64,000 nt of DNA, from assembly GCF_000179555.1 (NCBI RefSeq), contig NZ_AECZ01000021.1:1-64000 (forward strand). Direction: 5' to 3'. Position 1 is the stretch's first letter. Each line of letters begins with the position of its first letter. Source of the DNA: Solidesulfovibrio fructosivorans JJ] (lineage in GTDB: Bacteria > Desulfobacterota > Desulfovibrionia > Desulfovibrionales > Desulfovibrionaceae). Under the pieces are notes generated by a model that saw only the letters and a program-made list of their open reading frames with translations, had not been told where the DNA came from and searched no databases. Below, in pieces: positions 32,204 through 57,655 of the stretch. Both the position numbers and the translations under genes were made by a program.

Positions 32204-32221
32204 GGATCGATGAAAATGGAA

Positions 32222-32386
32222 CCGGGGGGAAACTTTTCTGAAGAAAAGTTTCCCCCCGGACCCCCTTTCCAAAGACTTTCAATAGTTACAGGGTGCTGTC
32301 GTTACAACACACATAACCGTTGAAAGTTTTGGGGAGGGGAGAGCGCGAGAGGGGAACCCTTTTTTCAAAAAGGGTTCCCCTCTCGC
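32222..32386. repeat. Family B double-hairpin repeat, complete copy B2
   Basis: Hairpin Y (arms 32222-32238 and 32243-32259, 17 bp) is followed by CTTTCCAAAGACTTTCAATAGTTAC, a core of about 20 bases, TAACCGTTGAAAGTTTTGGGG, and hairpin X (arms 32345-32364 and 32367-32386, 20 bp). It fills the gap between the convergent cobQ fusion and FmdB-type genes. Confidence 0.88.
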
Positions 32387-32419
32387 ACCTTCCTCTCATC
32401 TCCCCGAAATCGCGCCGCG

Positions 32420-35821: not shown

Positions 35822-35888
35822 AAAAAGTTGAGGAAGGGGAGAGCACGAGAGGGGCTACTGCCCTTTTCAAAGGGTTTCCCCTCTCGCA
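35822..35888. repeat. Family B half-element (diverged single hairpin), H3
   Basis: AAAAAGTTGAGGAAGGGGAGAGC is followed by an imperfect hairpin. CGAGAGGGG pairs with CCCCTCTCG and CCCTTTT with AAAGGG, with an unpaired CTACTG insertion in the left arm. It lies between oppD and oppF inside what should be one operon. Confidence 0.7.
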
Positions 35889-35905
35889 CCCTCTTCTCCC
35901 CTCCC

Positions 35906-36868
35906 CTATCCATACAACCAGCACCGCGCGCGGCGGCCGTTGTCCAGGGTGAAAAAGGGCGGCGCCTCGTGGGCGCAGGGCGCGAAGGCCCGGGGGCAGC
36001 GGGGATGAAAATGGCAACCCGTCGGCAGGGCGGACAGGCTCGGCACGGTGCCGGCGATGGGCGTCAGCCGGCCCCGGTCGGACAGACGCGGCAGCGAAGC
36101 CAAAAGCCCCTGGCTGTAGGGATGGGCCGGGCCGTCGAAAAAGGCCCGCACCCCGGCGTATTCCACCACCCGGCCGGAATACATCACGGCCACGGCATCG
36201 GCGGTCTGGGCCACCACGCCGAGGTTGTGGGTGATAAGCGCGATGGCCGTGCCCGAATCCCTGGTCAGGCCCAGCATGAGGTCGAGAATCTGGCGCTGCA
36301 CCGTGACGTCCAGGGCCGTGGTCGGCTCGTCGGCGATGAGCAGCTCCGGGGACAGGATGAGCGCCATGGCGATCATGACCCGCTGGCGCTGGCCGCCGGA
36401 AAGTTCGTGGGGATAGGCGGAAAGCCGCTTCGAGACGTCCGGCAGGCCCACCCGGGAAGCCATGGCGGCGGCGGCGTCCATGGCTTCCCGGCGGGAGGCT
36501 TTGCGGTGGATGCGCACGGGCTCGGCCACCTGGTCGCCGATGGTGAGCACGGGATTGAGCGAGGTCATGGGCTCCTGAAAGATCATGGAGGCCCGGCTGC
36601 CGCGAATGGCCCGGCGTTCCCGCTCGGGCAGGGCCAGGATATCCCGGCCGTCAAAGACCGCCTTTCCAGAGACCACCCGCCCCGGCGGCGGCACGAGCCC
36701 CAGTACCGACAGGGACAGCACCGTTTTGCCGCAGCCCGACTCCCCGACAACAGCCACGACTTCTCCGCGCCCGATGGCGAGGTCCACACCGTCGACGGCC
36801 GTAAGCGCGCCTCTGGGGGCGTCAAAGACCGTGGTCAGATTTTCCACGGAGAGAAGGGCTTGTTGCAT
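35906..36868 (-). CDS. oppD: Oligopeptide/dipeptide ABC transporter ATPase, OppD-like
   Basis: A 320-residue ABC ATPase, the partner of OppF. Walker A is [15 protein letters not shown], the signature [15 protein letters not shown], and Walker [13 protein letters not shown], followed by [12 protein letters not shown]. The OppD/DppD C-terminal region with [14 protein letters not shown] and [10 protein letters not shown] is present; these cysteines can hold an iron-sulfur cluster in related ATPases. The start [11 protein letters not shown] was chosen from homology; the ribosome site is weak. The gene upstream is divergent, so the permeases must be elsewhere or absent. Confidence 0.9.
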
Positions 36869-36983
36869 GGTCGCGGCGTTCCTGTCCCTTTCTACCGGCT
36901 TTGGAAGCCTCCAGCAAGGCCGGCCTGACGCCGTCGCGTATTTGTTTCTTGGCAATAAAGGACAAAACCGTTAGACACGCGCC

Positions 36984-41295: not shown

Positions 41296-41321
41296 CAGGG
41301 GATTCTCCCCGATAGAAACGC

Positions 41322-41376
41322 CCGCCCCGGCCACCGGCGCCTTTCCTGCGTCGACGGCCGGGGCGGACACGCTTTT
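41322..41376 (+). terminator. Probable terminator after the Bax-inhibitor-1-like gene
   Basis: CCGCCCCGGCC (41322-41332) pairs with GGCCGGGGCGG (41356-41366) across a 23-base loop, followed by five T at 41372-41376. Confidence 0.5.
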
Positions 41377-41467
41377 TCCCTGTTTCCCGCCAGGCCCGCC
41401 ATGATCCTTTTCCCCATGCCCGCACCCCACCCCAGCCGTTTTCGCCACGCCCCAAGGGGGGGCCGTC

Positions 41468-42619
41468 GTGCGCAACGTCCGTAAACGTCCTCAAGGGCAC
41501 CGGCCCAACACCGCCCTCTCCCGGTTGCCCGGGAAGACCGCTCTGGCCGGCGCGGCCCTGTCCGCCCTGCTCGTGCCGCCCTCGAGACTTTGGGCCCTTG
41601 GCCGGCGCGTCAAGGCGAAGCTTCACGCCATGGGCCTGTGCCGGACCTGCCGGCCCAAGGCGCTTTCGGTGGGCGTCGGCGGCATGGCGGCCGAAAGCCG
41701 GGGCCGGGTGCTTCTCACGTCGTGGCTCCTCGGCTGGGCCAAGGCCAGGGGGGTGGCCGCGGCCGTGGCCGCCTCTCCAAGCGACGGCCGGCCGCCGGTC
41801 GTACCCTATCAGCTCACGCCCGGCGACGCCTGCGACGTCACCGGCATCGAGGCGGCGCTTATTGCCGGCTACGCGCCGGACGCGCGCCTGATTCTCGACA
41901 CCGATCCCATCCGGGCGGCCAAGACCGCCGAGCGCGCGTTTGCCCCGGAAATGCTGGTGCACCAGGACGCCCTGGCCGATCCGCGCCTGAAAAAGGACAT
42001 CGAGCTGGCCATCCTCACCGCCGACGACCTGGATTCCGGCTGGGACCGGGTGTTTCCGGCCGGACATTGGCGGCGCGACGCCTCGGCCCTGGCCAAAGCC
42101 GACGCCTTTTGCGTCTTTGCCGGCCCCCTGGCCCAGCATGCCGCTCTGGAGGCGGCGGGAGAACGGCTGGCCTCTTTCGACAAGCCCGTCTTCGGCCTGT
42201 CCTTCGACATCTGGCGTTGGCACGGTCCGGAAAAAGCCGTGGCCGGGGAGGAACTGGCCGGCGCGCCCTACGTCGCGGTATTGGCCGAATCCGACCGCGA
42301 ACTGCTGCCTGAGATGCTGCGCCGCCAGATCGGGGTCGCGCCCCGGATCATCTTTTTCGTCCACGACCGGCACCGCTTCACCCGCCAGGATTTCGAGAAC
42401 CTGCGCGTCGACGCCGCCCGGTTCAAGGCCAGAAACATCCTGACCGCGCCGCGTCTGGCCCTGAAACTGGCCCAGCACGGCGGCATCCTGGACGGATACG
42501 CCATCTGGACCTATGATCCGGAGGTCGTCTTCGGGCCGTCCCTGACGGACGGCACCCCGTTTCTCACCTGGTGGGAGGCGGCGTTCGAGCAGGCCGCCCG
42601 CAAACGAAAAACGCCGTAG
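41468..42619 (+). CDS. LpxK-like protein with degenerate active site
   Basis: A 383-residue protein that follows the layout of tetraacyldisaccharide 4'-kinase (LpxK), the lipid A kinase. Similar segments are an N-terminal hydrophobic stretch, SVGVGGMAAESRGRVLL where LpxK has a VGGTGKTP Walker A, PEMLVHQDALADPRLKKDIEL where LpxK has the DDGLQH motif, and a DRVFPAGHWRRDASALAKAD segment corresponding to LPAGPLREP. The Walker A Lys-Thr and the DDGLQ residues are not preserved. Catalysis is therefore doubtful. The start is GTG at 41468 behind AAGGGGGG. A binding lipoprotein gene follows after 25 bp. Confidence 0.6.
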   Translation: MRNVRKRPQGHRPNTALSRLPGKTALAGAALSALLVPPSRLWALGRRVKAKLHAMGLCRTCRPKALSVGVGGMAAESRGRVLLTSWLLGWAKARGVAAAVAASPSDGRPPVVPYQLTPGDACDVTGIEAALIAGYAPDARLILDTDPIRAAKTAERAFAPEMLVHQDALADPRLKKDIELAILTADDLDSGWDRVFPAGHWRRDASALAKADAFCVFAGPLAQHAALEAAGERLASFDKPVFGLSFDIWRWHGPEKAVAGEELAGAPYVAVLAESDRELLPEMLRRQIGVAPRIIFFVHDRHRFTRQDFENLRVDAARFKARNILTAPRLALKLAQHGGILDGYAIWTYDPEVVFGPSLTDGTPFLTWWEAAFEQAARKRKTP

Positions 42620-42644
42620 AATCTCAAGCGGGAGGGATATTCCT

Positions 42645-43874
42645 GTGACGCCCGCACGAGTAAAAAGTTTAGGAAAGGGAGAGCGCGAGAGGGGAGAACC
42701 CTTTGCAAAGGGTTTCCCCTCTCGCATCGCCTTCCTCCCCTTTCTCCTCCTCCTACCCCTTCTCCTCACCATTGCCTGCGGCCGGGAAAAAGGGCCCGAG
42801 GTACGCCTGGGCTTTATCGCCAGCTTCAGCGGCGACGATTTCCGCACCGGCCGCGACACCCTGGAGGCGGCCCGCTTCGCGGTGGAACAGGCCAACAAGG
42901 GCGGCTTCCCGACCATCGACGGCAAGCCCTGCCGCGTGACCCTGTTCGTGGCCGACGACAAGGCCGCGCCCGGACAGGCGGCGCGGGCCGTGCGCGATCT
43001 GGTCGAGAAAGACCACGTCATGGCCATCATCGGCCCCTACGCCAGCGAAACGGCCAATGCCGCCGCCCTGGCCGCCGACGCCGCCGGCGTGCCCCTGATC
43101 GCGCCCTCGGCCACGGCCGCCGTGGTCACGGCCGGCCGGCCCCACATCTTTCGCATCGCCTTCACCGACGCCTTCCAGGGACAGGTCCTCGGCCGGCTGG
43201 CCCGCAACAGCCTTGGCCTCGCCAGCGTCTCGGTCATCGCCAACCACAACAACCTGTCGAGCATGTCCCTGACCGGCGCGTTCCTGAAAGCCTTTGCCGC
43301 CTGCGGCGGCACGGCGCGCGTCTTTTACTACGAGGACCGCACCCGGGACTTCGGCGGCATCGTGAAACAGGCCCTGGCCGACGCGCCCCAAGGAGTATTC
43401 CTGCCCAATTCCAGCAAGGACGCGGTGCTGACCGCCCTGGCCCTGCGCCGTGCCGGCTTTACCGGCACCCTTTTCGGCGGCGACGCCTGGAACGGGCCGG
43501 AGGTGTCGGGCCTCGCCGCCTTCGACGGCTCCTTTTTCGTGGACCACTGGCGCGAAGACTGCCCGCGCCCGGCCTCCAAAACCTACGCCGAGGCCTTTCG
43601 CCGCGAACGCCGCCACCCGCCCACGGAGATGGGAGCCCTGACCCAGGACGCCGTGGATGTCGTGCTGGCCGCCGTGGGAAAGGCCCGCTCCGTGGCCCCC
43701 GAAGCCGTGACCAAGGCCCTCATGGCCCTGCCGCCCCACAAGGGCGTCACCGGCACTTTCGACTTCGTGGACGACGGCAATCCGTCCAAATCCCTGCTCA
43801 TCACCAAAGTCATCGGCAACGGCCAGACCAAAACCCAGGATCTCCCGCCGCCCGGACCATGCCCCAGGCAGTAA
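42645..43874 (+). CDS. Branched-chain amino acid-type ABC substrate-binding lipoprotein
   Basis: A 409-residue periplasmic binding protein of the LivJ/type I fold, probably lipid-anchored. The mature part starts after a lipobox-like LLTIAC and shows VRLGFIASFSGDDFRTGRDTLEAARFAV, DDKAAPGQAARAVRDLVEKD, IIGPYASETANAAAL and PLIAPSATA, all typical. The only usable in-frame start is GTG at 42645, nine bases after GGGAGG. The first 27 residues are encoded by the family B half-element at 42660-42725, so the n-region of the signal peptide is repeat-derived. Ligand is unknown; no permease is nearby. Confidence 0.85.
   Translation: MTPARVKSLGKGERERGEPFAKGFPSRIAFLPFLLLLPLLLTIACGREKGPEVRLGFIASFSGDDFRTGRDTLEAARFAVEQANKGGFPTIDGKPCRVTLFVADDKAAPGQAARAVRDLVEKDHVMAIIGPYASETANAAALAADAAGVPLIAPSATAAVVTAGRPHIFRIAFTDAFQGQVLGRLARNSLGLASVSVIANHNNLSSMSLTGAFLKAFAACGGTARVFYYEDRTRDFGGIVKQALADAPQGVFLPNSSKDAVLTALALRRAGFTGTLFGGDAWNGPEVSGLAAFDGSFFVDHWREDCPRPASKTYAEAFRRERRHPPTEMGALTQDAVDVVLAAVGKARSVAPEAVTKALMALPPHKGVTGTFDFVDDGNPSKSLLITKVIGNGQTKTQDLPPPGPCPRQ
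42660..42725. repeat. Family B half-element translated as part of a lipoprotein, H4
   Basis: GTAAAAAGTTTAGGAAAGGGAGAG is followed by a hairpin whose arms (42685 onward, to 42725) begin GCGAGAGGGG and end CCCCTCTCGC, apex CCCTTTGCAAAGGG. It lies entirely inside the coding sequence of the binding lipoprotein and is read as ERERGEPFAKGFPSR. Confidence 0.8.
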
Positions 43875-43902
43875 GACAGGACAGGAAAGACGCCGCCGGC
43901 GG

Positions 43903-43963
43903 CCAGGGGGAAACTTTTTGAAAAAAGTTTCCCCCTGGACCCCCTTCAAAAACTTTCAACGGT
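43903..43963. repeat. Family B half-element between convergent genes, H5
   Basis: A 17-bp perfect stem (arms 43903-43919 and 43922-43938, CCAGGGGGAAACTTTTT and its complement) followed by ACCCCCTTCAAAAACTTTCAACGGT. It lies between the binding lipoprotein and the lysozyme-like gene, whose stop codon falls inside the conserved linker. Confidence 0.8.
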
Positions 43964-44585
43964 GCGGGAGGACGGCCGGGTCGTCCGGACCGTGGTCCAG
44001 CTCGATATCCCCCGCCTCGCCCATGGCCAAAAGCAGGGCCATGCCTCCGCATTGGCGGCTGACCGCCGTCGGCGACCAGACATGGTCGGCCACGTACTTC
44101 CCGGAGGTGTAGGCCGTGGTGAAGCTCCACAGGTAGGGGCTCGGCACGCTTGGCCGCCGCAGCCGGTAGCCGAAGCCGTTGTAGCGTTCAAGAACGTAGG
44201 CCGTGCCCGGTACGGACCAATCGTCCCAGGCATCGAGATGCTGCAGGCAAAGCGCATCAATGGCGCTTTCCTCCCAGGTGAAAGGCGGTTCCCCGTCCAC
44301 TGGGCGTCCACGCGGCACGCGCGCCGTGCGCGCGGTCAGCGGATCGCCGTTGTGCAGATGGCGGGTGAAGTCCTGGCCGGATTCCAGGCTGTGCAGGATG
44401 CCGACCACGTGGGCGGGCACGCCGGTCGCCGTCGACACGGCCCGGTAGCGGGCCATGGGGGCCTCGGCCCAGATGCGCGCCGCCAGCCGGGAAACCAGGG
44501 CCGCCCGTTCGGGACGGATGGCGGCCTTTGTGAAGATTGCCCGATATTCCCGAGACAATTGGTCGGTGAGAGCCAGACGCGACAT
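43956..44585 (-). CDS. Lysozyme-family-like protein
   Basis: A 209-residue protein resembling the lysozyme family group (COG5526 type) found in proteobacteria. Diagnostic-looking segments are HSLESGQDFTRHLHNGDPL, FTWEESAIDALCLQ, ERYNGFGYRLR, SPYLWSFTTAYTSGKYVAD and RQCGGMALLL. These fit a small glycan hydrolase with a likely catalytic Glu in SLESG. There is no signal peptide, so export would need a holin or specialised system. The start MSRLALTDQ has GAGAGG upstream. The stop TGA is provided by the adjacent repeat. The family assignment is from memory of sequence pattern and is moderate. Confidence 0.6.
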   Translation of the reverse strand: MSRLALTDQLSREYRAIFTKAAIRPERAALVSRLAARIWAEAPMARYRAVSTATGVPAHVVGILHSLESGQDFTRHLHNGDPLTARTARVPRGRPVDGEPPFTWEESAIDALCLQHLDAWDDWSVPGTAYVLERYNGFGYRLRRPSVPSPYLWSFTTAYTSGKYVADHVWSPTAVSRQCGGMALLLAMGEAGDIELDHGPDDPAVLPHR

Positions 44586-52268: not shown

Positions 52269-52290
52269 GGGAGTATTTTGTAAGATGGAA

Positions 52291-52457
52291 CCGGGGGGAA
52301 ACCTTTCTTGCGGAAAGGTTCTCCCCCCGGGCCCCCTTTCCAAAGACTTTCAATAGTTACAGGATGCTGGCGTCACATCACCCCTAGCCGTTAAAAGTTT
52401 TGGGGAGGGGAGAGCGCGAGAGGGGAACCCTTTTTTCAAAAAGGGTTACCCTCTCGC
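52291..52457. repeat. Family B double-hairpin repeat, complete copy B3
   Basis: Hairpin Y (52291-52307 and 52313-52330) has arms CCGGGGGGAAACCTTTC and GAAAGGTTCTCCCCCCGG. The linker CCAAAGACTTTCAATAGTTAC and AGCCGTTAAAAGTTTTGGGG is followed by hairpin X (52416-52457), which has one mismatch. It lies between the convergent kinase and hypothetical genes. Confidence 0.87.
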
Positions 52458-52487
52458 GCTTTTCGCGCTTTCCCTTCCCCAAGAGCC

Positions 52488-52922
52488 TCACGCCTGGGCG
52501 GTGAGCATGGGGGCGGAGCGGGAGGCGGTTGCTTCGCCGTTTCGGGCGTAGGCGCGCAGGCCGCGATTGCGGGCGGCGTCGGATGTCGTCTGGCCGGAGG
52601 CGGACGTTGTGGTGGCGGTGGAGCCCGTTTCGGAAGCGGTGACGCTCACGGCCACAGCCGCCTGGCGGGCCAGGGCCTGTCCCTGGCCGGCGAAATCGCG
52701 TCCGGGGGTGGACGCGCCGTCCCGCGAGGATTCGCCGGCCGGCACCGGTTCGCTGCCCACGGCGGCGGCTTCCTGGACGGGAGGCACGGCCGCGACGGCC
52801 TGCGGAGTGTTCATGCCTGTAGCGGCGGAGGCCGCCCGAACCGGCGGATCGGGCACGACCGGAGCCTGGGCCGCGTAGAGCCCCAACACCCCGTAACCGC
52901 CGCTGTCCACCGCATCGATCAT
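52488..52922 (-). CDS. Hypothetical Ala-rich protein
   Basis: A 144-residue protein that starts MIDAVDSGGYGVLGLYAAQA and is then low-complexity, rich in Ala, Ser, Thr, Val and Pro, with SGQTTSDAARNRGLRAYARN near the end. There are no cysteines, signal peptide or membrane helix. GGAGA precedes the ATG. The N-terminal GYGVLGLYAAQ looks conserved-like and could be a short binding motif. Function unknown; the gene could be an extended tail of flagellar or surface machinery, which is only a guess. Confidence 0.5.
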   Translation of the reverse strand: MIDAVDSGGYGVLGLYAAQAPVVPDPPVRAASAATGMNTPQAVAAVPPVQEAAAVGSEPVPAGESSRDGASTPGRDFAGQGQALARQAAVAVSVTASETGSTATTTSASGQTTSDAARNRGLRAYARNGEATASRSAPMLTAQA

Positions 52923-57449: not shown

Positions 57450-57470
57450 AAAAGAAAGAGAAGATGAGAT

Positions 57471-57634
57471 GCGAGAGGGGGACCCTTTTTGAAAAAAGGG
57501 TCCCCCTCTCGCGCTCTCCCCTCCAAAAAACTTTTAACGATTACAGCATGTTATCGTTAACGACCTGTCACCGTTAAAAGTCTTTGGAAAGGGGGTCCGG
57601 GGGGAAACTTTTCTACAGAAAAGTTTCCCCCCGG
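57471..57634. repeat. Family B double-hairpin repeat, complete copy B4
   Basis: Hairpin X (arms 57471-57490 and 57493-57512, 20 bp) comes first. The linker follows, with CTTTTAACGATTAC and CCGTTAAAAGTCTTTGG in inverted arrangement, then hairpin Y (57597-57634). In X the pair step AA/TT of copies B1 and B2 is GA/TC, a compensatory change. It lies between convergent genes. Confidence 0.88.
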
Positions 57635-57655
57635 CTCTTTTCCCCTCCCCTACAC

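Follow-up and report, generated by a model that had tools for sequence, protein, structure and literature searches.

A substrate-binding lipoprotein gene at positions 42645–43874 of the window (the whole 64,000-nucleotide stretch of Solidesulfovibrio fructosivorans DNA analysed here) contains, shortly 3' of its start codon, a hairpin-forming repeat that is usually found just past the ends of genes, and the question is whether this repeat is translated as the start of the protein. The gene follows lpxK (tetraacyldisaccharide 4'-kinase; 41468–42619, plus strand; Pfam LpxK, E = 9.7e-23), the stop codon of which lies 25 nt before a GTG at 42645. The open frame of the lipoprotein has 442 codons, in which the GTG (42645–42647) is the sole in-frame ATG, GTG or TTG before the lipobox Cys, and a Shine-Dalgarno-like GGGAGG (42630–42635, plus strand) is found nine bases 5' of it. 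The first-pass annotation had named this GTG as the only usable in-frame start, and the frame scan bore this out. Read from there, with GTG as M, the precursor is MTPARVKSLGKGERERGEPFAKGFPSRIAFLPFLLLLPLLLTIAC, and its N-terminus is laid out as MTPAR-VKSLGKGERERGEPFAKGFPSR-IAFLPFLLLLPLLLTIA-C. The accompanying claim that the repeat forms the N-terminus stood for codons 6–27 (the family B half-element read as VKSLGKGERERGEPFAKGFPSR; 42660–42728, plus strand), of which 42661–42728 is 97% identical to the repeat consensus. It did not stand for the first five codons (MTPAR; 42645–42659, plus strand), which lie outside the repeat, as this starts at about 42660, and which are perhaps a remnant of the old n-region. 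The repeat hairpin (42683–42725, given without strand; arms 42685–42703 and 42707–42725) is followed by the hydrophobic signal core and lipobox (IAFLPFLLLLPLLLTIA, then Cys; 42726–42776, plus strand), as read from the translation, and by the mature lipoprotein with its stop codon (42777–43874, plus strand), a Peripla_BP_6 substrate-binding protein (Pfam E = 3.8e-48). The lipobox segment fits the lipoprotein pattern of PROSITE PS51257. By composition and this pattern, a basic n-region, a hydrophobic core and a lipobox ending in Cys are all present.

The repeat belongs to a family with many copies in the genome of the window (G000). A strict pattern counted 104 copies in this genome, 100 of them listed, versus 0 for the reversed control, and the best 40 of 283 first-look candidates obtained with positions 42660–42740 as query were 90–100% identical. 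Allowing up to 3 mismatches, a search of both strands of the 64-kb window for the hairpin core gave 13 matches, or about six hairpins, where 0.27 were expected; other hairpin-repeat copies, from two families, are found at 2019–2203, 32217–32402, 35841–35901, 43898–43943, 52282–52489 and 57469–57651, several of them as neighbouring pairs. The G000 loci fetched hold 104 distinct places, which include neighbouring weaker copies and are not exactly the 104 of the strict pattern. With the repeat oriented as in the window copy, the right-hand gene was convergent at 73 of these 104 places, ran in the same direction at 30 and was not called at one; the stop of the convergent gene was 5–60 nt from the repeat in 64 places, with a median of 18 over the 73. 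At the 57 places examined in a second genome, G004, which came from the best 150 of 451 peptide candidates, the right-hand gene was convergent in 43 (34 with the stop at 5–60 nt) and in the same direction in 14, fractions that are biased because the last 11 stretches were picked for long open frames. All these neighbour-gene calls come from a codon score trained on nine frames of the window, not from annotation. Given that the right-hand genes are mostly convergent and their stops close, the repeat is a 3'-end repeat, and the window copy has the opposite orientation, at the head of a gene. A second hairpin is often found upstream of the repeat (49 of 105 places with a loose pattern, one place being counted twice). 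In the usual orientation a T run comes about 18 nt after the stem and does not directly follow it. The hairpin of the window copy was rejected as an intrinsic terminator, since a terminator scan of 41300–44200 listed it on neither strand, and the 14 Rfam matches up to an E of 1 in 41400–44100, all far under the gathering scores, were taken as chance.

Of the 14 genus genomes compared, G000 and G004 alone have the repeat in abundance (best 40 of 282 and of 297 candidates scored); seven of the remaining 12 have one weak match each and five have none. A close orthologue of the window gene is found in nine of the 14, with the repeat in this gene only in G000 and G004, and an lpxK match shares the locus with the lipoprotein gene in all eight orthologous loci tested (L002–L009). 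The first-pass annotation had expected a shorter, normal signal peptide in orthologues lacking the repeat. This is what was found in all seven (63–68% identical in protein to the window gene), each of which has an ATG with Shine-Dalgarno-like purines 24–29 codons 5' of the Cys position. In three of them (L005, L008 and L009) the lipobox Cys is missing and the protein resembles an ordinary secreted one, and anchoring has thus been gained or lost within the genus. Since orthologues without the repeat exist, the repeat in the window gene is an insertion. The named protein relatives belong to Solidesulfovibrio in three of four loci, the fourth being a distant Beggiatoa match. The lpxK of G004 (L002) matches in two frames, 231–923 and 892–1383, that overlap at about 892–923, which suggests a frameshift or sequencing error.

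Taken with the layout of the reading frame, these comparisons make it very probable that the repeat was inserted in frame after the GTG, is translated from GTG 42645 as the n-region of the signal peptide and is tolerated there; judged from the sequence, the most likely reading adds about 22 amino acids to the precursor. In the proposed sequence of events, the repeat would have multiplied in the lineage of the two Solidesulfovibrio-type genomes, and a copy would have landed, probably by direct insertion, in frame just 3' of the start codon of the lipoprotein gene beside lpxK. Translation from GTG 42645 would then continue through the repeat, whose basic and stop-free frame makes a long n-region. 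Two of the three forward frames of the repeat are indeed stop-free and basic, and because the frame used here is one of this kind, the precursor would keep a usable signal peptide. Of the parts of a signal peptide, the n-region best tolerates differences in length, provided that it remains basic. Cleavage at the Cys, presumably by signal peptidase II, would take off the addition together with the signal peptide during lipoprotein processing, so that the mature protein would be unchanged and the insertion tolerated as a probably neutral one.

Alternatively, the repeat could be a leader only, with translation beginning at one of two in-frame near-cognate codons, ATC 42726 or ATT 42771, and the hairpin lying in the 5' UTR. 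The hydrophobic core starts exactly at ATC 42726, and passages of PMC3733652 caution, for REPs at the NH2 termini of ORFs, that the real start may be downstream. However, neither codon has a suitably placed Shine-Dalgarno sequence in the 20 bases 5' of it, ATC 42726 directly adjoins the 3' arm of the hairpin, and a start there would give a signal peptide without positive charge. The n-regions read from GTG 42645 and from its G004 counterpart have net charges of +4 and +3, respectively, and those of the four lipoprotein orthologues range from +1 to +4. Moreover, a purine-rich stretch stands 5' of the GTG in G004 as in G000, though the remaining spacer differs between them. A leader-only repeat is thus very improbable, and a start after the repeat, which the first-pass annotation had named as the observation that would overturn its claim, is not borne out at either codon. 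In the G004 orthologue one TTG, without a Shine-Dalgarno sequence, is present after the repeat; the window gene has none there.

Arrival of the repeat might also have deprived the gene of its proper start and left it silent or decaying, which the combination of a GTG start and a repeat insertion could be taken to imply. Against this, the frame is stop-free in both G000 and G004, with 92% identity, and substitutions between these two genomes, both of which have the insertion, carry a third-position bias: over the 365 codons of the gene body they number 16, 14 and 40 by codon position. The dN was well below the dS by both methods used (0.041 and 0.147 by NG86; 0.036 and 0.397 by YN00), giving dN/dS of about 0.28 and 0.09, respectively. 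By these comparisons the gene body is under constraint, and a silent or decaying gene is extremely improbable. From the GTG to the Cys, G000 and G004 differ in length at a single place, by 6 in-frame nt located 3' of the GTG and 5' of the repeat; the sole substitution in the hairpin alters an amino acid (A to S).

The proposed reading of the repeat as coding sequence is not confined to the window gene. Three further genes, the N-termini of which were taken from the sequence and not from annotation, have an N-terminal repeat in both G000 and G004: an SMC-like gene, a ChaN-like lipoprotein gene and a GT2 glycosyltransferase gene (the name SMC-like, as well as radical-SAM-like and prepilin-peptidase-like below, was assigned by eye). 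The SMC-like protein, which had no Pfam match, starts with MTSIPLED-LGKGERERGEPFAKGFPSR-TSFSENDLSEERQ; both genomes have the same repeat peptide in the same frame, zero start codons between the repeat and the conserved body, and a difference of 3 nt between repeat and body. Orthologues in all 12 other genomes of the genus are without the repeat. The SMC-like gene has the repeat as unambiguously as the window gene. In the ChaN-like lipoprotein (Pfam Cofac_haem_bdg and PDZ) the repeat is read in the other open frame, as MLRITTLTAINFRKGRTREGRTLLKGFPLSHLPVFFLFSSLLLAGC, and translation could instead start at a TTG that lies in the hairpin loop, seven bases 3' of GGGGAG; from there, the final part of the repeat would still be used. 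The GT2 glycosyltransferase begins with MMPIKSLGRGERERGEPFSKGFPSR... and has an alternative TTG start at the 3' edge of the repeat. The repeat is absent from the ChaN-like gene in 11 of 11 and from the GT2 gene in 10 of 10 other genomes with a match. Because of these TTG codons, at the 3' edge of the repeat or in its loop, the GT2 and ChaN-like captures are ambiguous. Two kinds of locus were rejected as captures. At the window copy 35841–35901, the open frame 35828–36928 crosses the repeat and looks antisense, the copy appearing to stand after a minus-strand gene; copies followed by an ordinary ATG (L045, L053, L130, L143, L149, L161 and L168 of G000) were not counted.

Between G000 and G004, the length difference from repeat to body was a multiple of 3 in all four N-terminal-repeat pairs (0, 27, 3 and 0 nt), while among the other orthologous pairs this held for 4 of 25 (p = 0.003, one-sided Fisher test); the comparison left out two anchorless pairs (L035–L098 and L050–L187), one duplicate target and alignments of less than 350 bases. 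In an earlier count by single gaps, 11 of the 75 found at other pairs were multiples of 3. The weight of the frame test should not be overstated, as two of the four pairs show no length difference, and in the GT2 gene the 27 nt come after the alternative TTG. What bears on read-through is confined to the 3 nt of the SMC-like gene and to the 6 nt of the window gene, the latter outside the span of the test.

The first-pass annotation had also suggested that a hairpin near the beginning of the message may affect translation, which modelling does not back. The region 42620–42760 folds with −62.4 kcal/mol (z = −4.5), and the hairpin starts 38 nt 3' of GTG 42645. The modelled cost of opening positions −20 to +16 was 17.4 kcal/mol with the sequence to +36 and 18.1 kcal/mol with the sequence to +150 (15.8–18.3 kcal/mol between these), a change of about 1 kcal/mol; it was 13.7 kcal/mol in G004 and 12.3–21.0 kcal/mol in the seven orthologues. 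No special effect of the hairpin on initiation is thus predicted, and its role as a translational control of the window gene was rejected. These results also bear on the proposal that the repeat is kept for a gain, either because its charge or length helps export or because the hairpin tunes expression. Two of the four N-terminal-repeat genes encode lipoproteins with basic n-regions, as such a gain would have it; yet two of four are too few for a bias, the orthologues manage without the repeat, and the modelled effect of the hairpin is as small as given above. We regard a gain as decidedly unlikely, and a tolerated insertion, not an adaptation, is the best account of the repeat in the window gene.

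Given its stop-free basic frames and, at the ChaN-like gene, the GGGGAG seven bases before TTG, the repeat can provide an n-region and perhaps a ribosome site and start as well. A far more general proposal is that intergenic repeats are portable N-terminal cassettes, accepted at lipoprotein n-regions; repeats with their usual place at 3' ends would then have given rise to new signal-peptide starts time and again, in at least two lineages and from families unrelated to each other. We consider this proposal unlikely. In the ChaN-like gene of another genome, G011, the N-terminus (L195; G011:C1:1266316-1266391) lies in a different, likewise abundant repeat, unrelated by eye to the first. Among the best 40 of 407 candidates scored with this 76-base query, most covered query bases ~5–65, including the candidate ATG. 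Should translation start at this ATG, repeats would have entered one and the same signal peptide in two lineages. In G006, G009, G005, G012, G007, G008 and G013 the coding n-region of the ChaN-like gene contains a palindrome of the GGGGCGCGGGAA..CCCGCGCCCTG type, which sits where G000 and G004 have the repeat. This palindrome is not a repeat, because it occurs once per genome (up to 3 mismatches), at that locus; it was absent from G011, the eighth genome searched.

Long charged n-regions before an ordinary core are known from extended signal peptides, such as the ESPR of autotransporters. The window gene resembles them in this layout and differs in that its extension consists of a repeat that is specific to the lineage and that orthologues lack. 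Palindromic elements inserted in frame have been described in Rickettsia, where, according to passages of PMC10969869, these elements (RPEs) are about 150 bp long and nearly half are within genes. As in this kind of element, a dispersed palindromic repeat is found here in frame inside an open reading frame, and indeed in unrelated genes, with a recurring peptide and confined to a lineage. In contrast to the RPE description, the present unit is about 70 bp, is mostly found just past stop codons and has few captures. According to passages of PMC3733652, most REPs lie close to 3' ends, between genes that converge or run in the same direction; some are inside ORFs, at the NH2 end more often than at the COOH end, and many of the NH2-terminal ones may be extragenic, with the start call wrong and translation beginning downstream. 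The present repeat is like the REPs of these passages in being a high-copy hairpin near 3' ends with some copies at ORF termini, and unlike them in its arms of 19 nt (84% paired), as against listed REP stems of 5–13 bp. The exact tetranucleotides GTAG and CGTC, as distinct from tag variants such as TGTC or CCTC, were not found in the 74-base consensus. A link to a GTAG/Y1 (RAYT) transposase was rejected, as the one Y1_Tnp match in G000 lies in a 3,357-base locus without a repeat match of more than 9 bases.

Among the titles and abstract openings listed from the Desulfovibrio literature on intergenic and palindromic repeats, none describes this repeat; searches on REPs, MITEs, signal peptides and N-terminal extensions found no case of a repeat in such a role, and the term "signal peptide" is absent from PMC3733652. 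The in-frame palindromic repeat is a known type of event; within the literature searched, this repeat family seems to be new, as does the role of a repeat as the n-region of a signal peptide. N-terminal repeats are often blamed on wrong start calls, as in the passages of PMC3733652, and two genes described here have, in G000, no start codon between repeat and body. The window gene shows how a repeat might replace the n-region of a signal peptide with the mature protein untouched, and two genomes with the repeat next to others without it make a natural set for following how intergenic repeats become coding.

The repeat also meets reading frames at their ends. The stop codon of the convergent gene is inside or beyond the repeat at five of the 104 G000 places (L058, L116, L119, L125 and L145) and at seven of the 57 G004 places (L080, L081, L109, L181, L183, L186 and L188), and at these twelve loci the repeat seems to supply C-terminal residues; two of three such C-termini translated end with ...ARGETL (L058 and L116). 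Some minus-strand genes to the left of the repeat were flagged as reading through it (L033, L035, L043, L087, L098 twice, L137 and L162); the flag at L087 seems a wrong frame call. At L032 (repeat 1500–1574, reverse complement) and L190 (repeat 1498–1564, reverse complement), a radical-SAM-like and a prepilin-peptidase-like gene start at an ATG 5–11 nt past the repeat without a visible Shine-Dalgarno sequence; the ribosome site was perhaps displaced by the repeat. A protein query with the repeat-encoded N-terminus had 218 first-look candidates in G000, compared to 19 without the N-terminus; such repeats can therefore flood homology searches.
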